A stretch of 25,238 nucleotides of DNA from a virus: IMG/VR virus record IMGVR_UViG_3300046012_000449, positions 1-25,238 of that record; one strand, 5' to 3'. Shown here piece by piece: positions 512 through 25,187 of the stretch. Below the pieces are notes generated by a model. The model was given only the letters and a program-made list of their open reading frames with translations. It was not told the origin of the DNA and searched no databases. Positions within the stretch are counted from its first letter, which is position 1, and every line of letters begins with the position of its first letter. A program made the position numbers and the translations under genes.

Positions 512-553
512 GTGAAACGCATGGCATTGGTGACCGTAAGGCGTCGAGCATGA
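512..553 (+). CDS. 13-residue leader ORF coupled to the downstream membrane protein gene
   Basis: A GTG at 512 follows a good Shine-Dalgarno sequence (AAGGGAG, 499-505) and reads MKRMALVTVRRRA. Its TGA overlaps the ATG of the next gene as ATGA at 550-553. The next gene has no clear ribosome binding site of its own, so translation of the leader could deliver ribosomes to it. It may equally be a chance reading frame; its length gives no coding statistics. Confidence 0.35.
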   Translation: MKRMALVTVRRRA

Positions 554-744
554 TCATCTACGCTGGCCCTCTGTGGGGGATCGGGCTGCTGCTCTGCTGG
601 ATCCCGTGGCTGATCGCGAAAGACAAGGGCGGCCCCGTGTGGGGGTGGCTGCTGTTCGGGATCTTCTGCCTGCCGCTCGCCGTCCTGTTCGCCGTGCTCG
701 AGAAGCCGCCCGCCGAGCGGAAGTCCTACTTCACGTCGCGGTAG
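550..744 (+). CDS. small two-helix membrane protein
   Basis: A 64-residue protein with two hydrophobic segments (about residues 3-23 and 29-49) separated by a short charged loop (AKDKGGPVW), followed by a basic tail ending SYFTSR. This is a hairpin inner-membrane topology with a short cytoplasmic or periplasmic loop. Third codon positions are strongly G/C, which supports a real gene despite its size. The start overlaps the stop of a 13-codon leader. Its 3' end overlaps the convergent tailspike-like gene by 19 bases (726-744). A holin-like, superinfection-related or host-derived role is possible, but none is shown by the sequence. Confidence 0.7.
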   Translation: MIIYAGPLWGIGLLLCWIPWLIAKDKGGPVWGWLLFGIFCLPLAVLFAVLEKPPAERKSYFTSR

Positions 745-1982
745 ACGATGCCGCCCGCCTGCCGGTAGCTGCTGCCGGAGAGGCGCGGGTTCTGCACCGT
801 GTTCGTCGCCCGCCCGTACTCGACTGTGACGCCCGAGAACGGCCCCTCGAGGTCGGCGGCTTCGACGGCGCGGCCTTGCGCGTCGGCCACCTCGAGGTAG
901 TGGACGGTGCAGCCGTCGGTGGTCATCGACGGCGAACCCCAGAACTGCAGCCCGTTGCCCGACACCTGCGACTGCGCCGGCTGATGCAGCCCCTTCGCAC
1001 GCACCCACATCTCGCAGCCCGTGCCGAGCGCGCCTTTGCGGAGGTTCGACAACTCGATCCCCGCACCCGTCCACGCGTCCTGAATGTCGAGGATGAACTT
1101 CGAGTCCTCCACCCAGAAGTGCGAGTCGCCGATGTTCGCGGCATGGATGCCCGTGCCCTTCTCGGCGTGCGGGTCCGCCGCGAGCACGTCCGGGGTGATG
1201 AAGTACGCGCCGCCGGCGACGGGATGGCAGCCGTAGCTCGAATCCTCGACGCGGCCGCGGAACACGCAGTTCTTCGGAGGGCTCTTGATCCCGAACGCGG
1301 TGAGTCCGCCGGCGCGGGGCTTCTGCAGCAGCCAGTCCATGACGTCGCAGTTGACGAGGTCGTAGGTGATGATCTGGGCGCCCGAGCAGCGCGGCCCGTA
1401 CAGGTGGACGTTCGTGTTGTAGGCGAAGTAGATCGAGCCGAGCGCCTGGTTCGATGCCCCCTCGAACGCGCAGTCGTCTGACAGGTCGATCTCTGCGTAG
1501 CCGGACAGCGTCTTGCCGGTCAGAGCGACCTGGCCGGTGTTGCGGATGCCGTGGCCGCGGATCGAGTCGCCGGGACGGATGTCGGCCCATGCTGCGAGGA
1601 GCGCCGCCACGGTCGACACGTCCTTCACGCGTGTCGGTGTGCCGATGCCGCGCCGTTGGATCGCCTGCCCGTACTCCCACGAGTTGATCGACCCGGACGG
1701 AGGAGGCGTCGGTGCAGGCGGCGGAGGCGGCGCCGGGGCCGGGGAGACGACGGAGCCGCGGTCGGTGACCGTCAGCGCCTCGACCCCGTAGGCGTGCGGT
1801 TTACCGTCCTGCGGCCTCCCGATCTTCACCGACGTCCTCGTGCCGTCGATCGTGAAGTGGCGTTTCGCGTCAGCGAGGATCTCCTCTCCGTCGACGGTGA
1901 AGATGAACCCCGCCGCGCCGGGGACGGCATCCCAGCCGAGCGTGATCGCGAGGTCGGTCTCGGATGCGACGCGGATCTTCAC
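726..1982 (-). CDS. tailspike-like protein: fibronectin III-like domain plus right-handed beta-helix
   Basis: A 418-residue protein starting at GTG 1982, which overlaps the stop of the preceding gene as GTGA; no alternative start gives a better N-terminus. Residues 1-85 resemble a fibronectin type III / Ig-like domain (ITLGWDAVPGAAGFIFTVDG, later HAYGVEAL). A proline-rich linker (PAPAPPPPPAPTPPP) at about residues 90-107 leads to about 310 residues of short strands with recurring Asn/Asp/Gly turns (NTNVHLYG, NCDVMDWL, EDSSYG, NLRKGALG), typical of pectate-lyase-like beta-helices. Such proteins serve as phage tailspikes or polysaccharide depolymerases. No catalytic residues can be assigned by eye. 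It is the last gene of the late operon, beyond the lysis genes, which is an unusual place for a tailspike. Confidence 0.75.
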   Translation of the reverse strand: MKIRVASETDLAITLGWDAVPGAAGFIFTVDGEEILADAKRHFTIDGTRTSVKIGRPQDGKPHAYGVEALTVTDRGSVVSPAPAPPPPPAPTPPPSGSINSWEYGQAIQRRGIGTPTRVKDVSTVAALLAAWADIRPGDSIRGHGIRNTGQVALTGKTLSGYAEIDLSDDCAFEGASNQALGSIYFAYNTNVHLYGPRCSGAQIITYDLVNCDVMDWLLQKPRAGGLTAFGIKSPPKNCVFRGRVEDSSYGCHPVAGGAYFITPDVLAADPHAEKGTGIHAANIGDSHFWVEDSKFILDIQDAWTGAGIELSNLRKGALGTGCEMWVRAKGLHQPAQSQVSGNGLQFWGSPSMTTDGCTVHYLEVADAQGRAVEAADLEGPFSGVTVEYGRATNTVQNPRLSGSSYRQAGGIVYRDVK

Positions 1983-2080
1983 AGCGTCTTCCCGAAGACG
2001 AGGAGGACGGCGCAGACCGCGATCAGCACGATCAGCACCTCGACGATCGTCACGCCGCGGCTGTCGATCAGCCGCCTCAT
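1979..2080 (-). CDS. 33-residue membrane microprotein with a prepilin-like N-terminus
   Basis: ATG at 2080 overlaps the upstream stop (ATGA), and its own TGA overlaps the GTG of the tailspike gene (GTGA). This double coupling supports it as a real gene. The sequence is a short basic leader MRRLIDSRG followed by VTIVEVLIVLIAVCAVLL and a short GKTL tail. The pattern Gly, hydrophobic, Thr, two hydrophobics, Glu at +5 and then a long hydrophobic helix is the class III (type IV prepilin) signal pattern, with cleavage expected after Gly9. The helix has one Cys. Known prepilins are far longer, so this may instead be a small holin/spanin-type membrane peptide that resembles one. Confidence 0.65.
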   Translation of the reverse strand: MRRLIDSRGVTIVEVLIVLIAVCAVLLVFGKTL

Positions 2081-2346
2081 TCCTGCACCGCCGGCGGCTC
2101 CTGCGGCTGCACGGTCTTCTCGCCGGCGACGGTCTGGGCGGCACCGGTCCAGATGCTCTTCAGCATCGGCCAGACGCCGCGGCGGCCGATGTAGAGGACG
2201 GCGGTGATGATCGCGCCGGCGACGAGCAGCGACGTCGCGGACGACATGCGCAGCCACTCGTAGTGGAGCGAGACGCGGTAGACGGCGTAGGCGAGGCCGG
2301 TCGTGAAGAGCGACGCGGTCGCGTTCGGATGTCCCTGCGTGGGCAT
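2077..2346 (-). CDS. holin-like small membrane protein
   Basis: An 89-residue protein whose ATG is preceded by a strong AAGGAG six bases upstream (2352-2357). A weak amphipathic or hydrophobic stretch at residues 10-27 (TASLFTTGLAYAVYRVSL) and a clear membrane helix at about 37-53 (SATSLLVAGAIITAVLY) are followed by a basic turn (IGRRGVW) and a polar tail ending EPPAVQE. Size, topology and position just after the endolysin and a membrane coiled-coil protein fit a phage holin that would release or permit the endolysin's action at the membrane. No holin family signature is visible, so the call rests on context. Confidence 0.6.
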   Translation of the reverse strand: MPTQGHPNATASLFTTGLAYAVYRVSLHYEWLRMSSATSLLVAGAIITAVLYIGRRGVWPMLKSIWTGAAQTVAGEKTVQPQEPPAVQE

Positions 2347-2349
2347 GGC

Positions 2350-2365
2350 TTCTCCTTCGTCTAGG
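2350..2365 (-). promoter_or_regulatory. strong ribosome binding element CCTAGaCGAAGGAGAA before the holin-like gene
   Basis: On the minus strand the bases read CCTAGACGAAGGAGAA immediately before GCC-ATG. The same element, one base shorter, precedes the protease-capsid gene (17798-17812). Here TAG is also the stop codon of the upstream gene. The strong site marks an independently initiated gene in an operon where most starts are coupled. Confidence 0.6.
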
Positions 2366-2906
2366 TGGTGGAGCTTGCGACGAGCTGGTCGCGGATCTCG
2401 GTGAGGAGCTGCGACTGCTGTGCGATGCCGGCGACGAGCTTGTCGAATAGCCGGGCGCGGCTGTCGATCGCCTGCTCGAGCCCGTCGAGGCGCGCGATGA
2501 CGGCCGACAGGTCGTGCTTTGCCTCTTCGAGCTTCAGCTTCCCCTCGAGCTCGGCGAGCTTGCCTTTCAGTGCGTGGCGTATCTCGCGCTGTTCCTCCGC
2601 GAACTCGGCCATCTGGCCGGTGTGCGTCAGCTGCGCGTCGACGAGCTGCTGCGCCTTGTTCTTCAGATCGTCTTCGAGCACCTTGACCTGGGCGCCGCGC
2701 TCCTCGGCGAGCTCTTTCCAGAACGACTTGAGGTTGTTGCGGAGGGTGAAGACGCCGGCGACGATCACGACGACCGCGGCGACGACGATCGAGCCGAGCC
2801 CGACGGTGTCGTTGAACGTGACGCCGTACACCGCGGACCCGAGCACTCCGGCGCCGGTTGTGATCCCGACGGTCAGCTTCGGGATGAAGAGGTGCAGGTC
2901 ACTCAT
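2361..2906 (-). CDS. membrane-anchored coiled-coil protein of the lysis region
   Basis: A 181-residue protein. Two hydrophobic segments (about residues 10-28 and 36-54, the second GLGSIVVAAVVVIVAGVF) are followed from about residue 58 to 172 by a long Glu/Lys/Leu/Gln-rich helix with few helix breakers (ELAEERGAQVKVLEDDLKN and onward), a predicted coiled coil. Its start overlaps the endolysin stop by one base (TGATG). Phage proteins with an N-terminal membrane anchor and a coiled coil next to the endolysin can act in lysis (spanin-like or holin-associated), but an actinobacterial host would normally not need an outer-membrane spanin. The function is therefore open. Confidence 0.65.
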   Translation of the reverse strand: MSDLHLFIPKLTVGITTGAGVLGSAVYGVTFNDTVGLGSIVVAAVVVIVAGVFTLRNNLKSFWKELAEERGAQVKVLEDDLKNKAQQLVDAQLTHTGQMAEFAEEQREIRHALKGKLAELEGKLKLEEAKHDLSAVIARLDGLEQAIDSRARLFDKLVAGIAQQSQLLTEIRDQLVASSTT

Positions 2907-3712
2907 CAGTAGCCGGCGTGCACGTGGTTTTCGTGCTCGCGCATCGTGGTTGCCCCGTAGAACGCGGCGGACGGGATCGTGAGGGCGGCGATCGCGGCGT
3001 CTGGCCGGTTGGCGTAGCCGCCGCAGATCAGCTGGCGGGGCCGGTAGCTCGCAGGCGCCTGGTGAAGGGCGGTCGCGACCGCGAGCGTTTTCTCGCGGCC
3101 GGCGGCGGCGGCGACGGAGATCCCGTCGATCGAGGAGATGTCGACGGCGAGCCCGCCCGCGTGTCCGTGCGGGCCGTCGTTGGAGTGGTCGGAGCAGATC
3201 GCGAACGTGCCGAGCGTGAAGCCTTTGTCTTCGATGAGGAAGATGAGCGCGCGGAGCGGGGCGGGGTTGATGTGGATCCAGCAGCCGGCGTGCGACCAGA
3301 CGGGTTTGCCGGCGGCGGTCGCTTGGATGTCTGCGAGGTCGCCGGGGTTGTCGGCCCGGTAGCGGCCGGCGGCGTGCAACGTGAGCAGCGCCTTCGCTGC
3401 CAGCACGGCGGTCGCGGGGATCGGCGGCGGCGGAGGGTTCCGGATCGCCGCGGCCTTGTAGAGCGAGATCCCGTAGAGGTCGAACGCGGGCGCGACGACC
3501 TTGTGTGTGGCGGGCCCGTACACGCCGTCTGCGGGCAGATGGTGCTGCCGCTGGACTGTGCGGATGCAGGCGCCGAACGAGACGCCCGCGTTCTTGGAGA
3601 GGACGAGTGCGCCGGAGCCCGCGATGTGGAGTTTGCGGAGTGCGCGTTTGACGGCGAGGACGTCGGCGCCGGTCTGGCCGGGCCGGATCGGCTGACGGTA
3701 GGGCGTCGTCAT
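2906..3712 (-). CDS. endolysin: peptidoglycan-binding domain plus M15-like metallopeptidase
   Basis: A 268-residue protein. Residues 8-80 match a PG_binding_1 domain (GQTGADVLAVKRALRKL, then TVQRQHHLPADGVYGPATH). After a proline linker (residues 93-98), the C-terminal half carries the zinc-peptidase pattern of the M15/extensin-like fold: H184-AGGLAV-D191 in HGHAGGLAVDIS, and H263-V-H265 in the terminal NHVHAGY. Such enzymes cut peptide bonds in cell-wall stems or cross-bridges. No signal peptide is visible, so export needs the holin-like neighbours. The ATG overlaps the stop of a 15-codon leader (ATGA, 3709-3712) and has no strong ribosome binding site of its own. No amidase or lysozyme motif is seen. 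Confidence 0.8.
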   Translation of the reverse strand: MTTPYRQPIRPGQTGADVLAVKRALRKLHIAGSGALVLSKNAGVSFGACIRTVQRQHHLPADGVYGPATHKVVAPAFDLYGISLYKAAAIRNPPPPPIPATAVLAAKALLTLHAAGRYRADNPGDLADIQATAAGKPVWSHAGCWIHINPAPLRALIFLIEDKGFTLGTFAICSDHSNDGPHGHAGGLAVDISSIDGISVAAAAGREKTLAVATALHQAPASYRPRQLICGGYANRPDAAIAALTIPSAAFYGATTMREHENHVHAGY

Positions 3713-12375: not shown

Positions 12376-13757
12376 GTGAGCGCACCTGCTTTCCAGCCCG
12401 ACGTTGAGGCGCCCGTCTTCCAACCCATGTTCGGCGCGCCGATGCGGAACGACACGGACGGCACGGTGACGGTGCCTGCGAGCGCGACGCCTACCGTCGC
12501 AGCCCCGGTCGATGTCGATGTGAGGGCGCGGTCTCGGACGAGCGTCGATGAGATGGTCGCTGTGCCGAGCGCCTGCGCGCCAAGGCTGCGAGCGCGGGTG
12601 AGGTTCGCGGAGACGGTCGCGGTCGCGGTGATGGCGGCGCCGCGGGCGCGGCTGCGGACGACGGCTGCCGTAACTGTGGCTGTGCCGTGGATCGTCGGTG
12701 TGAGAAGCCTGGTCTGGCCGCCGAGACCGGCGCTGACGGAGGCCGAGCCGGAGCTCGTCGCCGTGAGTGCGCGGAGACGGACGATGGCGGCGCTGACGGT
12801 GGCGGCCCCGGAGATCGCTGCGTTGCGCGAGCGGGTTCTGACGACGGTCGCGGAGACTGTCGCGCCGGCCGAGATGGACGCTCCCCTCGACCTGACGCGC
12901 ACGACCAAAGCGGAGACCGTCGCCGCGCCCGTGACTGTCGCTGTGCGGGCGCGGGTTCGTTTGACGCTCGCCGAGACCGTGGCGGCGCCGGACACAGAGG
13001 CCGCGCGCGCTCTCGTGCGAACGACGGAAGCCGCGACCGAAGCCGCCCCGGATATGGCGGCGGTCAGCGTCTTCACGGCGCCGCTGGCGATCGCGATCTC
13101 GAGGCCGACGATCGCCGCGCGCGCCGAGGTGGCCCAGCTCGCGCTTACCGTCGCATCAGCACCCGCCGCATCCGACCACTGGCACTCGTTGCCGCGGTTC
13201 GGGGTCAGCATATTGTTGTCGGAAAGCTCAGTCCACGAAGTCCTCGGCGTGGTTGCTTCGCCGGCGCCGTGCGACACGAACGCGATCCCGCGGTTGCCAG
13301 CGTTCGCGAACGCCGACATCGCCTGCGAGATCGACGTGGCCGCGTTCGCAGCGACCGGCAGCGCCTTGAACACGGCCTGGACGATCGCGCCGGCCCCGTT
13401 CGTCCCCGACGGATCCATGCCGCTCACCTCAACGACAGCCCACGACGTCCCCTGCTGAATCGACCCCCAAGCGAACGTGATCGCCCCGGAGCTCGGCGAG
13501 GCTGTGAGCGACCGGAAAACGTAGAGGTCGCTCTCGGATGCGGTGTCGGTCGACCAGTCGAGGTTCGACCCGATCTGCGTCCACGTCGCACCGCACCCAG
13601 ATACAGACGAAGGGGTGCCGGGGACGCCTCCGCTCTTCGCGCCCATCAGGAACAGCAGGATCAGCTTGTTCGCGCCGGGGCTGATCGAAGCCGTCGCATA
13701 CGACGTGGTGTCCGTCGAGTCGTTGCCGGCGTCGAGAAGAGTGAAGGTCAGAGCCAT
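12372..13757 (-). CDS. virion surface protein with ten 20-residue repeats
   Basis: A 461-residue protein starting at ATG 13757 (TAATG overlap). Residues 1-228 look like a jelly-roll/lectin-type beta domain (KLILLFLMGAKSGG, SDLYVFRSLTASPSSGAITF, WAVVEVSGMD, NRGIAFVSHGAG). Residues 229-431 are about ten tandem repeats of about 20 residues with consensus A-x-[IV]-S-G-A-A-T-V-S-A-x-V-V-R-T-R-[AS]-R. The end has a doubled GWK motif (GWKTGASTSGWKAG). The repeats alternate small/hydrophobic residues with regular arginines, which would suit a beta-solenoid or fibrous shaft with a basic face. The gene sits between capsid and connector genes, so a head fiber or decoration role is proposed. Known function: none recognised. 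Confidence 0.75.
   Translation of the reverse strand: MALTFTLLDAGNDSTDTTSYATASISPGANKLILLFLMGAKSGGVPGTPSSVSGCGATWTQIGSNLDWSTDTASESDLYVFRSLTASPSSGAITFAWGSIQQGTSWAVVEVSGMDPSGTNGAGAIVQAVFKALPVAANAATSISQAMSAFANAGNRGIAFVSHGAGEATTPRTSWTELSDNNMLTPNRGNECQWSDAAGADATVSASWATSARAAIVGLEIAIASGAVKTLTAAISGAASVAASVVRTRARAASVSGAATVSASVKRTRARTATVTGAATVSALVVRVRSRGASISAGATVSATVVRTRSRNAAISGAATVSAAIVRLRALTATSSGSASVSAGLGGQTRLLTPTIHGTATVTAAVVRSRARGAAITATATVSANLTRARSLGAQALGTATISSTLVRDRALTSTSTGAATVGVALAGTVTVPSVSFRIGAPNMGWKTGASTSGWKAGALT
12465..13073 (-). repeat. tandem array of ~60-base coding repeats
   Basis: About ten copies of a 60-base unit encode the 20-residue repeats of the surface protein. Copies are diverged at both DNA and protein level. 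One copy (the sixth) is atypical, with SAGLGGQTRL in place of the Arg-x-Arg end and one extra residue. Such in-frame arrays can change copy number by recombination. Confidence 0.8.
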
Positions 13758-15172: not shown

Positions 15173-17794
15173 TTAGCTGTGCTTGATGCGGAGCATCCGG
15201 AACGCGTTGGGCGTCCGGAGCTTCGAGGTGTTGCGGAAGTAGACGTAGAGCGCGCGCGCCCCGATCAGCTTCCCGTTCGAGTTGCGGACGAGCGGGTCGA
15301 GCTCGACGTTGAGGCCGACCCGGTCGACGATCACGAAGCCGCGGCCGAAGTCGCCGAGGACGAGCACCTTCTCGCTCCCGGTGGTGACGGCGCGCGACAT
15401 CTCGGACGCGACGTTCACGGGGTAGTCGATCAGGGTGTAGCCGGTCGTGCCGGTCGGGCGGTTCCGGAAGCCCTGCGCGAGCGGCACCCAGAAGTCGAGC
15501 CGGCTGCCGGCGAGCGCCCGCAGCGCCGAGAAGACGCCGCGATTGCCGATCCACTGCGCGTTCGCGTCGAAGCGCGGCGGCAGGTCGTCGACGAGCAGGT
15601 CGAGGTCGGAGATCGCGAGCGTGTTCACGGCCGCGGTGTCGACGATCGAGGTGCCGTCTGCGTTCAGGGCGTAGATCAGCCCTTCCGGCTCGTTCGTGCC
15701 GGTGCCGAAGAGGAACTTGTTCGCCTCTTTGGTGTCCTTGGCGTCCTGGAACATCAGCGCGAGCTCGGACCGGAGCGCGCCCCAGTCCTCGTCGGCCTCG
15801 ATCGAGAACTGCACCTCGGCCTGCGCCTTCTCGACCGTGACGTCCGGCGCGTCGAAGCTCGGCGTCTGCGCGGTGACCTCTGCGAGCTCTGCCGCGTAGT
15901 CGACCGTGACGCCGTCGGACGAGATGCCGCGCCAGGTGTTGCCGGTGATCGTGACGTTGCGGCTGATCGCCCGCATCGGGTTCGCAACCCCGTCGGAGGT
16001 CAGGAGCACTGTCGGGTCGATCTGCACCGGCACGGGCGTTTCGGCGCCGAGCCCGCCGATCGAGATCGCCTGGTTGATGAGCGACTGCTCGGCGTTCGAA
16101 AGCGGCCGGCCCATCACGAGCTTCCCGAACGCCTTGTCGTACGCCGGGTCCGACGTGACGATCATGCGCTGCGCGAAGTTCGCGTCCTTCGTGTCGGCAC
16201 CGAGGAGGCGCTCGACGAACGACTTCGGCAGGTCCTGCTTGTCGGTCTCGTACAGCACCGTCTCGTTCGCCCGCTTCGCGCCGTCTGCGTAGAGGCCCGC
16301 GAGCTCGTCGAGCGACCGTGCGTGCTTCTGGTAGCTCGCGATGTCCCACACGTTCCTCGGGCCCTTGCGGTCGACGTTCGTGCCGAACGGCTTTTCGGCG
16401 ACGTGGCCGTTGCCGCCCTCGGTGGCCCCCTCGTTCTTCGCGCGGGACGCGACGCGGGCCTGCTCGGCTTCGCGCTTCTCGATGTCCGCGATCGTGTTGT
16501 CGATGTGGTCGATGTCCTGCATCGCCTTGTCGTACTCGGCGCGCGCGTCGCCCTCGAGCAGCGTGCCCGAGTGCTCCGCGTTGATCTCCGCACTCCGCGC
16601 CGCGAGGGTTTCACGCTGCGCGATCAGCTCTTCCTTGGTCTTCACTTCGGCCTCCTTGGCCTTGGGGGTGGTTGCCGTCGCCGTCGCGCGGCTGGTGACC
16701 GCGGCTGCGGTCTCTTGCGTCGACGCCGGGGTGGCGTCGAGTCCTTTGCCCGGCTCGGTCGCCGCCGCGGCGGGCTGTACGACTGTCGCGCCAGCGGGGA
16801 GCCGGCCGAGGAGCGCCTCGCGGAGCTCTTCTGCGGGCATCGCGCGGAAGCTGGCGGACGCCGCCGCGACCTGTTCGCTCAGGCCGACGAGCTCCCGCTC
16901 GACAACTGTGCGGCCGTCGATGAACGCCGTCGAGTGGCCGAGTGACAGCGACCCGTTGCTCTTCAGCAGGCCGTTCACGACCTTCTCGAACGTGTCGACT
17001 CGGTCGACCATCCCGGCCGCGAGAGCGTCCTGCGCGGTCAGGAGACGGCCGTCGCCGTAGCTGTTGCGGACGTTCGCTTCGGTCGTGCCGCGCCCTTTTG
17101 CGATGTCGGCGACGAACCGCTCCTGGTACTGGTCGACCATCCGCTGGAGTGCCTGCTGGGCTTCCTCCGACAGCGAGACGAACGGTGCGAGCTCGGTCTT
17201 CGCCTCGCTCGACTGGACGGGCGTGATCTTCACGCCATCCGCCTCGAGCGCAGCGGTCATGTCCTGATGTAGGAAGTACGTGCCGACCGACCCGACCATC
17301 GCCGACGGTGACGCGACGAACTCGTCGGCCTGGGCGGCGAGCCCGAACGCGGCCGAAGCTGCCATCGTGTTCGCGACCGCGACGAGCGGCTTCGTCTTGC
17401 CCGAGCGGACGATCTGCGCGGTCTCGGTCAACATCGACGCTGAGCCGCCGGGCGAGTCGACGTCCATCACGACGGCCGCGATGTTCGGATCGGCCATCAT
17501 GCCGCGATAGACGGCCGCGAACGCGTCGAGCGACGTGCCGCCGCTGATCTCGGCCATCAGGTTCGACTTCGGGAAGATCGACCCGTACAGCGGCAGCACA
17601 CCGATCGAGCCAGCCGCGGGCCGCTGGCGGCGCTGCTGCGCGGCCGAGGTGATCTCCTCGAGCTCGGCGTCCGACAACACGTTGCCGCTGAGCACGCGAC
17701 CCCAGAACTGCTGGATCTCGTGCAGCTTGGACGGCAAGATCTGCCACGGCGTCTCAGAGACGAGCTGTCCGAGCAGCCGGTAGTCGTGCTTCAT
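15173..17794 (-). CDS. head maturation protease (S49-type) - scaffold - HK97 major capsid protein fusion
   Basis: An 873-residue single reading frame with AAGGAG (17800-17805) before the ATG. Residues ~60-280 are an S49/SppA-like serine protease: MDVDSPGGSA (110-119), the probable nucleophile Ser147 in MAASAAFGLAAQ, and the probable general-base Lys199 in SSEAKTELAPF. Residues ~340-380 form an Ala/Thr-rich linker. Residues ~383-453 are a charged coiled coil like the HK97 delta (scaffold) domain. Residues ~478-873 have the HK97 capsid pattern, including NVWDIASY, NVTITGNTWRGISSDG, QAEVQFSIEADEDWGAL, ANKFLFGTGTNEPEGLI, and QWIGNRGVFSAL. In HK97 these functions are separate proteins. Here self-cleavage would have to release the mature capsid, perhaps near residues 455-478. 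No stop or frame break separates the parts. Confidence 0.92.
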   Translation of the reverse strand: MKHDYRLLGQLVSETPWQILPSKLHEIQQFWGRVLSGNVLSDAELEEITSAAQQRRQRPAAGSIGVLPLYGSIFPKSNLMAEISGGTSLDAFAAVYRGMMADPNIAAVVMDVDSPGGSASMLTETAQIVRSGKTKPLVAVANTMAASAAFGLAAQADEFVASPSAMVGSVGTYFLHQDMTAALEADGVKITPVQSSEAKTELAPFVSLSEEAQQALQRMVDQYQERFVADIAKGRGTTEANVRNSYGDGRLLTAQDALAAGMVDRVDTFEKVVNGLLKSNGSLSLGHSTAFIDGRTVVERELVGLSEQVAAASASFRAMPAEELREALLGRLPAGATVVQPAAAATEPGKGLDATPASTQETAAAVTSRATATATTPKAKEAEVKTKEELIAQRETLAARSAEINAEHSGTLLEGDARAEYDKAMQDIDHIDNTIADIEKREAEQARVASRAKNEGATEGGNGHVAEKPFGTNVDRKGPRNVWDIASYQKHARSLDELAGLYADGAKRANETVLYETDKQDLPKSFVERLLGADTKDANFAQRMIVTSDPAYDKAFGKLVMGRPLSNAEQSLINQAISIGGLGAETPVPVQIDPTVLLTSDGVANPMRAISRNVTITGNTWRGISSDGVTVDYAAELAEVTAQTPSFDAPDVTVEKAQAEVQFSIEADEDWGALRSELALMFQDAKDTKEANKFLFGTGTNEPEGLIYALNADGTSIVDTAAVNTLAISDLDLLVDDLPPRFDANAQWIGNRGVFSALRALAGSRLDFWVPLAQGFRNRPTGTTGYTLIDYPVNVASEMSRAVTTGSEKVLVLGDFGRGFVIVDRVGLNVELDPLVRNSNGKLIGARALYVYFRNTSKLRTPNAFRMLRIKHS

Positions 17795-21528: not shown

Positions 21529-21869
21529 CAGACGGCCACCGTCTCGCGGGAGCGACGACCGTCGGTCACGCCGTGGCAGTGCGCACACGCGGCGTCGCAG
21601 TCGGCGACGGTCGCGATGTCGTGGTTGCCGGCGAGCTCGGGATGCAGATGCACCGTCGTTGCGGTGGTGGTGCAGCCGGGCAGCCGCAGCTCGCACAGTC
21701 CGCCGGTCGCGGCGAGCACCTCGCGGCGGACACGCTGGAAGTGGGCGCGCTTGACGCCGTGCGCGACGGTTTTCGCGTTGCGGCGCGCGTTATCGTCGGG
21801 CTGGTGGGCGGCACAGTAGGAGCCCGGGGCCGGGACGCCGCAGATCAGGCAGGGCCGTCTCGGGGTCAC
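21528..21869 (-). CDS. HNH endonuclease
   Basis: A 113-residue protein starting at GTG 21869 (GTGA overlap). It carries an N-terminal Cys/His cluster (PCLICGVPAPGSYCAAHQ), and a treble-clef-type core with CELRLPGC, then VHLHPELAGNHD, and the closing DCDAACAHCHGVTDG. The catalytic His is probably in the TTVHLHP stretch, and the final CxxCH pair would bind the structural zinc. The stretch before that His lacks the usual 'aDHi'. HNH proteins beside terminases assist packaging-related cutting in several HK97-like cos phages, which fits the location upstream of both terminase subunits. Confidence 0.85.
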   Translation of the reverse strand: MTPRRPCLICGVPAPGSYCAAHQPDDNARRNAKTVAHGVKRAHFQRVRREVLAATGGLCELRLPGCTTTATTVHLHPELAGNHDIATVADCDAACAHCHGVTDGRRSRETVAV

Positions 21870-22564
21870 GCTGCCGCCCAGTCCTCGAGATGCTCTGCGG
21901 TGCGGCGCCGGTAGTAGACGCTCCGTGCGCGGTGGCGGTCGGCCGGCCGCACGTCGACGGAGTGGCCGAACGTCAGCGCCGGCGACACGTCGAACGCGTC
22001 GACGAGCTCGACGTGCGCACGGTCGCCGGAAAGCCAGGAGCCGCCGGCGGTGCGGACGCCGTTGTGTGCTCGCTCGTATCGCGGCTGGGCGGCGGCGCGG
22101 AAGAGGCGGCGGACGCTGTAGGTGTTCGCGCGCATCTGGTCGAGCGGCCAGCGGGTCGTGAAGTTCGTCAGCAGCAGCTCGGCGACGTCGCCGGAAGCGG
22201 ATGCGAGTAGCCGTTCGAGGAGCTGCCGGTCGTGCGAGAAGACGTGCTCGTCGGCGTCGAGCACGAGCAGCCAGTCGGTCTCTGCGGGTGCGAGTGCGAT
22301 CTCGAACGCCGCGTTCCGTTTCACGACCTGCGACGGCCACGCGGCACCCGGCCGCACGATCACGCCTTCGAGGCCGATCGCGGCGGCGGTCTGCTCGATC
22401 GCGTCGCGCTGCTCGTCGGCGCTGATCGCCTGGTCGCCGGGGAACCCGTGCCAGCGGCCGTCGAGCGCGACGAGCCTGTCCGCGACGCCTGCGAGCGACA
22501 GCACCGCGCCGGCGAGCATGTGGGGCTCTTCGTCGTACCAGCAGAGGCAGGCCGTCACGACCAT
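21866..22564 (-). CDS. glycosyltransferase, family 2-like
   Basis: A 232-residue protein. It begins with a GT-A nucleotide-binding strand (MVVTACLCWYDEEPHML), a KRN motif (SQVVKRNAAFEIA) and the metal-binding DAD at residues 103-105 (WLLVLDADEHVF), the hallmarks of GT2-type sugar transferases. The C-terminal half has DRAHVELVDAFDVSPAL and a basic end. The cytosolic phage enzyme probably transfers a sugar to a protein, DNA base or glycan; the acceptor is not shown. GGAGG lies ten bases before the ATG. It is the last gene of the sugar cassette and overlaps the HNH gene by four bases. Confidence 0.82.
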   Translation of the reverse strand: MVVTACLCWYDEEPHMLAGAVLSLAGVADRLVALDGRWHGFPGDQAISADEQRDAIEQTAAAIGLEGVIVRPGAAWPSQVVKRNAAFEIALAPAETDWLLVLDADEHVFSHDRQLLERLLASASGDVAELLLTNFTTRWPLDQMRANTYSVRRLFRAAAQPRYERAHNGVRTAGGSWLSGDRAHVELVDAFDVSPALTFGHSVDVRPADRHRARSVYYRRRTAEHLEDWAAA

Positions 22565-22786
22565 CTAGCCGCGCCTCCAGAGGCTCGGGACGTCGGCGGC
22601 GTCGGCGAGCTCGCGCAGCTCGGTCGTCAGGCGCGCGTTGAAGTCGAGCTGCTCCCACTGGGCCTCGCCGGTCGCGAGGTAGGCGCGCGCGATCCGGTCG
22701 GAGAGCGTCTGCCTGGCCTGCTGCAGCGGCATCGCGAACAGCCGCACCGCTTCGACACGGACGGCGTGGTCGTTCGTCTTGTTCAT
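22565..22786 (-). CDS. small hypothetical protein of the sugar cassette
   Basis: A 73-residue protein. The ATG at 22786 is chosen because it forms a TGATG overlap with the previous stop; a TTG one codon upstream is also possible. It is largely helical and charged (DHAVRVEAVRLFAMPLQQAR, LSDRIARAYLATGEAQ, LTTELRELADAADVP) with no membrane segment. It ends TAG directly before the next gene's ATG. No family is recognised. Its steady placement inside the cassette suggests a partner or regulator of the neighbouring enzymes, but this is a guess from context. Confidence 0.6.
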   Translation of the reverse strand: MNKTNDHAVRVEAVRLFAMPLQQARQTLSDRIARAYLATGEAQWEQLDFNARLTTELRELADAADVPSLWRRG

Positions 22787-23775
22787 CAACGCTTCACGGC
22801 CTCGGCGTGGAAAACGTCGGGCGGGTCGCCGTAGTTGCGCTGGATCAGAGATCCGTCAGCGAAGAGCGTGCAGTCGGCGTCGATCTCGGAGGCCACGAGG
22901 CCGGCGGCGTGCATGTGGTCGAGCACGAGTGCCGGGGTCGTCGCGACGGCCGCGCCGGGACGGATCACGGGGCGGCTGCCGGCGGGGTTTCCGATGTCGT
23001 CTTCGGTGATCCGGACGACGCCGCCGGGTGCGAGGACGCGGGCGATCTCCTCGAACGCGAGCGGCCAGTGCTCCTGGTTGACGTACATCAGGACGTGGCT
23101 GACGGTGATCGCCTCGACGCTGCCGTCGCCCCACATCCCGAGGCCGTCCTCGAACTTCCAGCCGTAGGAGACGTCCATGTTGACGTAGCCGGGGATCTGG
23201 TTGATCTCGCCGCCGAGGTTCAGCCGCAGCGACGGCACCTCCCACTCGTCGAGCGGCTGGGCGAAGTGCATCGCGGTGCCGGAACGTTCGCTCTGCGACC
23301 GGTAGCAGGCGAGCGCAGCCGCCTTCAGGTCGCCCCAGCCGCTCTCGGCCGGGACCGGGCGGCCGTCGCGGGAGCGGTGGACGTCTTCGCCGTCGACGGT
23401 GTAGGTCGTGTAAAAGCTCACGCGGCCCGGCCACATCCGGGTCGCGAGCTCCGCGACGCGGTTGTGGTGGTCGTGCCCGTGCGGCTCCGGGAACGGCGCC
23501 CACACCCTTGAGGGGTCGACGCCGCGCAGCGCGATGCGGCGCTCGACGGACGCCTGCCAGTCTTCGTAGGCGAGCGGCACCCACAGGTGGTCGTAGTCGC
23601 AGCCGAGGATCTCCATCGCGGCCATGCTCTCCGCGACACGGTCGGCCGGCAGCGGAAAGTTGCTTTTCCGGCGGCCGTCGAGGCAGGTCAGAACGAGCGG
23701 CCGGTGCCGGAGAAGCGTGAACGACGCGAAGAGCGCTTCGTCGTCGTTGTGCGGCGACAGCAGCAGATCGGTCAT
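22786..23775 (-). CDS. PIG-L/LmbE deacetylase fused to a methyltransferase-like domain
   Basis: A 329-residue protein; ATG 23775 overlaps the previous stop (ATGA). Residues 1-180 are a PIG-L/LmbE-type zinc deacetylase: SPHNDDEAL (residues 7-15; family norm PHPDDE) and HGHDHHNR (99-106; the HxDH metal site). Such enzymes remove acetyl groups from N-acetylated sugars. Residues 183-329 resemble a class I SAM methyltransferase: LNLGGEINQIPGYVNMDV (motif I and acidic strand), the mid motif ITVSHVLMYVNQEHWPLAF, and EEIARVLAPGGVVRITEDD. Motif I has GGE rather than the usual GCG. The join is in one frame. It would deacetylate a sugar and then methylate it or its partner. Substrate unknown; context suggests phage glycan modification. 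Confidence 0.83.
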   Translation of the reverse strand: MTDLLLSPHNDDEALFASFTLLRHRPLVLTCLDGRRKSNFPLPADRVAESMAAMEILGCDYDHLWVPLAYEDWQASVERRIALRGVDPSRVWAPFPEPHGHDHHNRVAELATRMWPGRVSFYTTYTVDGEDVHRSRDGRPVPAESGWGDLKAAALACYRSQSERSGTAMHFAQPLDEWEVPSLRLNLGGEINQIPGYVNMDVSYGWKFEDGLGMWGDGSVEAITVSHVLMYVNQEHWPLAFEEIARVLAPGGVVRITEDDIGNPAGSRPVIRPGAAVATTPALVLDHMHAAGLVASEIDADCTLFADGSLIQRNYGDPPDVFHAEAVKR

Positions 23776-25187
23776 GCCGCCACCAGCCCCGGGTAGAGCC
23801 GGTCGGACGCGTCGGGGTTCATCATCGAGCGCTCGCCTGCGACGGGTGTCGCGAGCGACCGCTGCACCCGGTACATCCGCCGGCCGGCGGCGTGCAGCCG
23901 CAGCGACATCGCCCGGCCGACACCCGACGACGACGGCCCGCCCGGAAGACGCTCCGGCAGCCCGAAGTCGAAAAGCTCGAGCGTGTCGCGCTGGCACAGG
24001 TAGATCCCGTCGACGTGGAAGATCTCCCACGCCTCGCCCCGGTCGAGCGGGAACCGGCCGGTCCAGTTCATCAGGCCCTCGTGGTCGCGGAGCCGCCACA
24101 GCGTCAGCGTCGCCGGCTCGTCGAGCTGCGCCCATGTGTCGAGCGCCCGCGGGATCGCGTGCCGGACAAGCCGCACGTCGTCGGGCAGGAACACAAACCA
24201 GTCGGCGCCGCTCGTCGCGCAGTCGCCGAGCTCGCACGCGACGAGCCGCGCGTGGTTCTCCCTGCCCAGCCGCTGATCGAAGCGATGCCACGACCAGCCG
24301 TTCGCCTCGACGATCGCGCGCGCCGCCTGGTAGTCGCAGCCGGCCGGGTCCTCGTACACCGCGACGTCGAGATCGACGTAGCGCGCCTGCCGCTCCAGGT
24401 CGCGCAGCAGCTCCGGCAGCAGATGCGGCCGCCCGCACGTCGCGACCGACACCCTCACCCGCGGCCGCCGCGGCGTCTCGCTCCAGTCGACCGACTCGAG
24501 CGCCGCCCGCCGCGCCGCGCGCGTGTCGCGCACCGACCCGTCGCCCACCTGGTTGCTCTCATAGATGCTCTCCGACGCCGCCGGCTGGATGTCACGCAGC
24601 CACCCCTCGCGGTGCGCGAGCGCGACCATCGGGATCCCGAACCGCTGCGCGTGACACGCGAGATGAACATCCGCCATGTTCGCCGTCCGGAAAACGTCGC
24701 GCCACACCGGCACCTCCGCCGGCCGAAACCCGAGCGTCCCCGTCCCGAGCACATTCACGTCGACGTCATCAGTGGCGAGCTCGCCGAGGCAGCGGATCGA
24801 TCGGTGCGACGCCGCCTTGTGCGCACCGTTCCAGCCGAGTGTCCGGCCGCCGTGGAACCCGACCATCACCCCCGGCCCATACCGGTCGAGACCCGCCTCG
24901 ATCCGCGACACGTAGTCGGCCGGATACAACAGATCGTCGTCGCACGTCACGACGAGGCCGTCCCAGTCGTCGACGGCCGCGAACTTCTCGCCGTCACCGC
25001 CGCCACCGTCACGGATCACGACCGACGCGTGTGGGTAGCCGCCCAGAAACTCCGGGATCTCCTCGTGGCCGTTCAACGACACCGCGATCCGATCAACCTG
25101 CGACGCCAGCGACGCAACCGTCCGAGCAAGCGACCGCTCCCGGCCCGGCACCGATGCGACCCCAGCGAGAACCCGCTCACCGGTCAC
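23772..25187 (-). CDS. tandem two-domain glycosyltransferase
   Basis: A 471-residue protein starting at GTG 25187 with GGAGG six bases upstream; the start lies in the end of the upstream frame (11-base overlap). Domain 1 (about residues 5-200) has a GT-A opening (VLAGVASVPGRERSLARTVA), DDD at 83-85 (GLVVTCDDDLLYPADYVSRI) and a terminal AHREGWLRDIQ. Domain 2 (about 243-420) repeats the theme (VRVSVATCGRPHLLPELLRD, ADWFVFLPDDVRLVRHAI with DD at 336-337). It probably transfers two sugars, or one domain may be for binding. Both halves retain acidic motifs. The end is basic (SLRLHAAGRRMYRVQRSLA). Confidence 0.8.
   Translation of the reverse strand: MTGERVLAGVASVPGRERSLARTVASLASQVDRIAVSLNGHEEIPEFLGGYPHASVVIRDGGGGDGEKFAAVDDWDGLVVTCDDDLLYPADYVSRIEAGLDRYGPGVMVGFHGGRTLGWNGAHKAASHRSIRCLGELATDDVDVNVLGTGTLGFRPAEVPVWRDVFRTANMADVHLACHAQRFGIPMVALAHREGWLRDIQPAASESIYESNQVGDGSVRDTRAARRAALESVDWSETPRRPRVRVSVATCGRPHLLPELLRDLERQARYVDLDVAVYEDPAGCDYQAARAIVEANGWSWHRFDQRLGRENHARLVACELGDCATSGADWFVFLPDDVRLVRHAIPRALDTWAQLDEPATLTLWRLRDHEGLMNWTGRFPLDRGEAWEIFHVDGIYLCQRDTLELFDFGLPERLPGGPSSSGVGRAMSLRLHAAGRRMYRVQRSLATPVAGERSMMNPDASDRLYPGLVAA

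Follow-up and report, generated by a model that had tools for sequence, protein, structure and literature searches.

A prepilin-type signal among phage lysis genes

What does a 33-residue protein bearing the signal of a type IV prepilin do among the lysis genes of a phage? The window, i.e. the whole stretch of 25,238 bases that was analysed, corresponds to a complete IMG/VR record and has genes for terminase, portal, protease-capsid and tail; its lysis cassette runs in the order endolysin, membrane/coiled-coil protein, two-TM protein and microprotein (Table 1). An earlier note on this DNA had described a 33-residue peptide with the leader MRRLIDSRG, Gly-1, Thr+2 and Glu+5 (+1 being the residue after Gly), and minus-strand positions 2080-1979 translate as MRRLIDSRGVTIVEVLIVLIAVCAVLLVFGKTL, exactly as described. 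Direct reading and a regular expression both recovered the elements of a class III prepilin signal, with a basic leader of nine residues, Gly-1, a hydrophobic or neutral residue at +1, Thr+2, Glu+5 and an apolar helix of about 20 residues. Overlaps on both sides and its codon composition mark the ORF as a real gene. Its ATG shares bases with the stop codon of the 89-aa gene that precedes it (ATGA, 2077-2080), and its TGA runs into the GTG start of the gene that follows (GTGA). GC content by codon position (0.62/0.35/0.97) is like that of the genes for endolysin, capsid and terminase in the window, which indicates that the frame is coding.

The same overlaps confirm the tight coupling claimed for the two neighbours, which the earlier note had called holin-like and tailspike, while the names themselves hold less firmly: "holin-like" comes from the position and topology of the 89-aa protein and "tailspike" from position only. 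Neither the 89-aa nor the 33-aa protein has a significant match to holin families in PHROG or Pfam, and for the 420-aa downstream protein we found no family and no confident fold, the AlphaFold2 model being unusable (pLDDT 40). In its C-terminal part, the endolysin shares 41-42% identity with the C-terminal end of a 758-aa protein of L002. A reading of the microprotein as a frameshift signal anchor of the downstream gene was rejected, because the overlap CTGTGAAG lacks a slippery heptamer and because the counterpart in the relative G003 (see below) has its own N-terminal hydrophobic signal-like segment.

The terminase of the window most resembles terminases from actinobacteriophages and from Actinobacteria prophages; the nearest of the prophages, brought up by a genome scan with the terminase (59%), sits in an Actinobacteria metagenome-assembled genome (MAG). 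Judged by this similarity, the host of the uncultured phage probably belongs to the Actinobacteria. In the class of that MAG, the likely host's class, 57 of 61 genomes encode Peptidase_A24, and the MAG itself has four N_methyl proteins and two prepilin peptidases (Peptidase_A24); the prophage contig within it, on which no lysis region was recognised, shows no PF07963 match. No pilus-assembly or prepilin peptidase gene is present among the genes identified in the 25-kb record, which are structural, lysis and sugar genes. The DNA of the sugar cluster is about 80% identical in the relative G001, and its role is possibly virion or DNA modification; the protease-head ORF has near full-length matches in G001 and G003.

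Table 1. Features of the window (first nine lines) and of related phages
Feature	Position	Strand	Basis or remark
33-aa single-TM microprotein, prepilin-type motif	1979..2080, stop included	(-)	leader MRRLIDSRG, then VTIVEVLIVLIAVCAVLLVFGKTL
89-aa two-TM holin-like protein	2077..2346	(-)	position after endolysin; G..G....[IV]W.G motif common to relatives
181-aa membrane and coiled-coil lysis-cassette protein	2361..2906	(-)	weak holin/spanin-type matches; 31% identical to L017 homolog
Endolysin	2906..3712	(-)	N-terminal PG_binding_1 domain
420-aa protein	726..1988	(-)	GTG start overlaps microprotein stop; tail-fibre/depolymerase-like by position and proline-rich linker only
64-aa double-TM ORF	550-744	(+)	opposite strand, faces lysis cassette; phrog_8436 (E 2.7e-4), family of unknown function
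873-aa ORF	15173-17794	(-)	one polypeptide joins phrog_53 (head maturation protease) to phrog_10 (major head protein)
Sugar cluster	21866-25187	(-)	upstream of terminase; two weak family-2 glycosyltransferase matches
PIG-L deacetylase fused to methyltransferase domain	22786-23835		within sugar cluster
102-aa single ORF of G003, holin-like with C-terminal prepilin-type helix (DGLTLVEALVVLVIVAIVLILIFG)	L019:1483-1791	(-)	above Pfam N_methyl cut-off
Tiny membrane proteins of G001, 29 and 30 aa	L006:10974-11061 and 12445-12537	(+)	flank lysis cassette; no prepilin motif
Acyltransferase of G007	L017:14468-15493	(-)	PF01757, 97.5 bits; opposite strand, between tail and lysis genes; surface-sugar-modifying kind

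Likeness to pilins exceeds chance controls

All five Pfam and NCBIfam matches of the microprotein are pilin families, every one of them under its curated cut-off. The best Pfam match by E-value (0.015) is Flp1_like (PF16982; 15.2 bits, cut-off 33.5), and the others are Pfam N_methyl (PF07963; 14.3 bits, cut-off 21.2) and the NCBIfam families TIGR02532 (13.5 bits, cut-off 16.3), ComGC (14.6 bits) and ComGD. Among 80 shuffles with the same leader and core composition, none matched a pilin family, and several reached E 0.005-0.05 to unrelated membrane families; E-values alone are thus not evidence, while the consistency of the pilin families is. The prepilin regular expression, run over 241 kb of phage DNA translated in six frames, matched two places, the microprotein ORF and its syntenic homolog in G003, and had no match in 200 Markov simulations of the window. 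Within the 25-kb record PF07963 matches the microprotein ORF alone (12 bits), and in ten further phage records no match appeared at E up to 10; a match in G004 was rejected as non-motif, its Gly being absent. A chance origin of the signature is disfavoured by the shuffle, Markov and regular-expression controls together with the syntenic homolog.

In a relative the segment is fused to the holin-like protein

Relatives were sought with tail, portal, terminase, major-tail-protein and endolysin queries, which gave G001 and G003 as close and G007 (L017) as more distant. In G003 (IMGVR_UViG_3300046012_000214), whose terminase is 79-81% identical to that of the window, a single ORF of 102 aa fills the slot; it follows the endolysin and coiled-coil genes and precedes a large gene whose product has a hydrophobic segment at its N-terminus. 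The first part of this ORF bears the G..G....IW.G motif of the two-TM family and the last part is AEDGLTLVEALVVLVIVAIVLILIFGLPH, so that the prepilin-type segment, N-terminal in the window, is here the C-terminal third membrane helix of a holin-like protein. The G003 segment passes the N_methyl cut-off with 22.7 bits in hmmscan and 25.1 in the six-frame search. The microprotein is identical to it at 13 of 25 residues, with Gly-1, Thr+2, Val+4 and Glu+5 in register, and the local alignment has a BLOSUM score of 59 against a shuffle mean of 31 (3 of 20,000 shuffles as high). The earlier note had named beforehand, as evidence against itself, homologs that fail to keep Gly and Glu+5; the one syntenic homolog keeps both, and Thr+2 as well. 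Where the codons of the two copies differ, the changes are not in excess at third positions, though GC3 saturation weakens this test.

The best matches of the G003 segment are pilins. With a pseudopilin of the Actinobacteria MAG that has the nearest related prophage terminase, it reaches a score of 70 and has EDG-x-TLVE in common; its scores with other TM helices from these phages are 20-31. The microprotein itself resembles the G003 segment more closely than any of the host pilins it was compared with. AlphaFold2 predicts for the fused protein helices at 4-25, 32-67 and 80-99, in a weak model (mean pLDDT 67.7) whose non-helical linker (68-79) spans the predicted cut site. The microprotein itself is predicted to be an inner-membrane protein with the N-terminus inside and the C-terminus outside; the positive-inside rule puts the leader inside and the C-terminus outside for the microprotein and the fused protein alike, as expected of a prepilin.

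The pilin-like element is carried by two sequences only, the window and G003. In G001 (IMGVR_UViG_3300036827_000072), the closest relative by terminase (93% identical), with genes largely collinear, a two-TM gene homologous to that of the 89-aa protein (27% identity, E 9e-6) runs straight into a glycosidase-like gene (GHL15, 22.9 bits, sub-cut-off) with no microprotein between them. G007 has at a comparable position a clear two-TM holin (phrog_9284, E 1.4e-11), whose homology to the 89-aa protein is weak, and no prepilin-type segment. These two relatives suggest that the element is dispensable for lysis. Of the tiny membrane proteins of G001, the 29-aa one precedes the two-TM gene and weakly matches phrog_1142. 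Searches of the phage collection by tblastn with the microprotein, the fused segment and a canonical prepilin all gave no match; they are uninformative, since even the canonical prepilin was missed, probably through masking of these sequences by the low-complexity filter of BLAST. When the alignment of holin plus microprotein was searched across the whole class, one match came back, in a membrane-bound acyltransferase-like ORF, and was judged unrelated.

A pilin-like helix that may serve the holin

The microprotein does not qualify as a pilin: a head domain is lacking, no pilus locus surrounds it and its fused copy is not N-terminal. Neither a C-terminal globular domain nor an extended stalk follows the apolar helix, and both copies stop 3-4 residues past it. 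The prepilin interpretation of the earlier note is thus upheld for the signature, which is real and kept in G003, but the G003 arrangement recasts the microprotein as a detached third holin-like helix. The microprotein lies in the lysis cassette and is co-translated with a small multi-TM protein near the endolysin, as looked for in a holin partner. Gene position, the overlap and the fusion in G003 all speak for joint action of the segment with the two-TM holin-like protein, and the place of the segment as third helix in G003, together with its absence from the nearest relative by terminase, points first to a holin or lysis component; partnership and lysis role are, on these grounds, probable. 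We therefore favour, with a probability of about 0.5, the view that the microprotein is an optional third TM element of the group's two-TM holin-like protein, acting in lysis. The element would be made in two ways, as a separate, translationally coupled polypeptide in the window or as an in-frame fusion to the holin-like protein in G003, and its prepilin-type sequence probably derives from a host type IV pilin or arose by convergence on one. The microprotein would most likely be made together with the holin-like protein and packed against it in the membrane, where it would tune lysis. In pilins, the membrane-embedded Glu and Thr serve packing during assembly and Gly-1 is a requirement for cleavage; that Gly, Thr and Glu are all kept here suggests more than a bare anchor, and the three residues may give helix-helix contacts of the pilin kind. 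Within this holin-element model, we put cleavage by the host prepilin peptidase after Gly9 at about one in three.

How much of the pilin likeness has to do with pili is where the alternatives part. The homologous third helix could be an ordinary holin TM helix, with G-x-T-x-x-E serving holin packing and the likeness arising by convergence, free of any pilus or peptidase link. The sub-cut-off scores of the window copy agree with this, as does the ease with which hydrophobic helices reach low E-values (0.005-0.05) to unrelated membrane families; compared with individual host pilins, moreover, the microprotein lies modestly above shuffles (fraction at or above the observed score 0.004-0.13). The G003 copy, however, exceeds the N_methyl cut-off and finds its best matches among pilins, down to the motif in common with the host-group pseudopilin, and we hold an ordinary helix to be doubtful. 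A holin gated by the prepilin peptidase would explain the conservation of Gly-1 and Glu+5 in both forms: cleavage after Gly-1 at the cytoplasmic face would time or license lysis, freeing the pilin-like helix from its leader in the window or from the holin in the fused form. The cut site would fall in a cytoplasmic linker in both predicted topologies, and the peptidase is encoded in nearly all genomes of the host class, twice in the nearest prophage-bearing MAG. Yet the signal of the fused form is internal, unlike that of ordinary prepilins, and the two relatives without the element presumably lyse anyway, which leaves gating unlikely. The wider proposal, that a prepilin-type helix was added to a holin and that lysis uses or is licensed by the host prepilin peptidase or pilus machinery, with cleavage at Gly9 (or at the matching Gly77 of the fused form) as part of the lysis programme, is in our estimate a shade more unlikely still. 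Were the prepilin reading true, lysis timing would be linked to a host peptidase present in most genomes of the presumed host class.

Alternatively, the helix might be a headless pilin decoy that enters and poisons host type IV pilus assembly and so blocks pilus-dependent superinfection, its lysis-gene neighbourhood being incidental, as for other morons. Such a role would account for the retention of Glu+5 and Thr+2, which serve packing in pilins, besides the cleavage Gly. Short prepilin-like PHROGs (phrog_10597, 13280 and 3433) are matched by real pilins, and two of them are weakly matched by the microprotein; small anti-pilus proteins, namely Tip, Aqs1 and Zip, are known from phages (PMC11656802). 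These proteins, however, are not described as pilin-like, and in the fused form the helix belongs to a holin-like protein, probably one expressed late, so that we find a decoy improbable; if true, it would mean a pilin decoy hidden within a lysis cassette. Finally, a non-functional or unrelated microORF with an accidental likeness to prepilins was already disfavoured and appears very improbable. The microprotein is indeed short, of low complexity and sub-cut-off when taken alone, and the non-motif match that arose by chance in G004 reaches 11 bits against its 12; the synteny with G003, the coding-type codon bias, the tight overlaps, the shuffle and Markov controls and the ten other phage records unmatched by PF07963 all speak against accident.

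Comparison with known systems

Use of the type IV pilin processing pathway is, to our knowledge, not known from any holin, and a search of the open-access literature brought up no holin with a prepilin motif, whether in the holin itself or in a coupled protein. The microprotein is like the N-termini of type IV pilins and pseudopilins (PF07963, TIGR02532, ComGC) in its basic leader, Gly-1, Thr+2, Glu+5 and apolar helix of about 20 residues; unlike them, it is headless, ending at residue 33, and is phage-encoded beside a holin-like gene with no pilus locus, its fused copy being C-terminal and its window copy under the cut-offs. Flp1-like Tad pilins (PF16982) are likewise small one-helix prepilins, but the microprotein falls well short of their cut-off and has no Tad locus. 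Phage-encoded prepilin-like proteins as such are not new: phrog_10597, phrog_13280 and phrog_3433 (annotated pilin) are phage-encoded with a prepilin-type N-terminus, and real pilins match these three as well as phrog_11263, phrog_27437 and phrog_11596. The three weak PHROG matches of the microprotein include phrog_10597 and phrog_13280, at E 0.3-0.4, too weak for membership. Tip, Aqs1 and Zip are also small phage proteins, acting on type IV pili, but their targets are PilB or PilZ-PilB, and mimicry of a pilin is not described for any of the three (PMC11656802).

On the side of lysis, the known one-TM partners LysF1b and LysZ are far larger than the microprotein or of opposite topology. LysF1b, at 124 aa, is oriented N-out/C-in, has a charged domain in the cytoplasm and is not reported to carry a prepilin motif, whereas the microprotein has 33 aa and is predicted N-in/C-out. 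The arrangement of the genes is nevertheless alike: in F1 mycobacteriophages, a two-TM N-in/C-in protein (LysF1a) is followed by a one-TM gene (LysF1b) with an ATGA overlap, adjoining the endolysin genes, and both proteins are needed for efficient lysis (PMC13056207).
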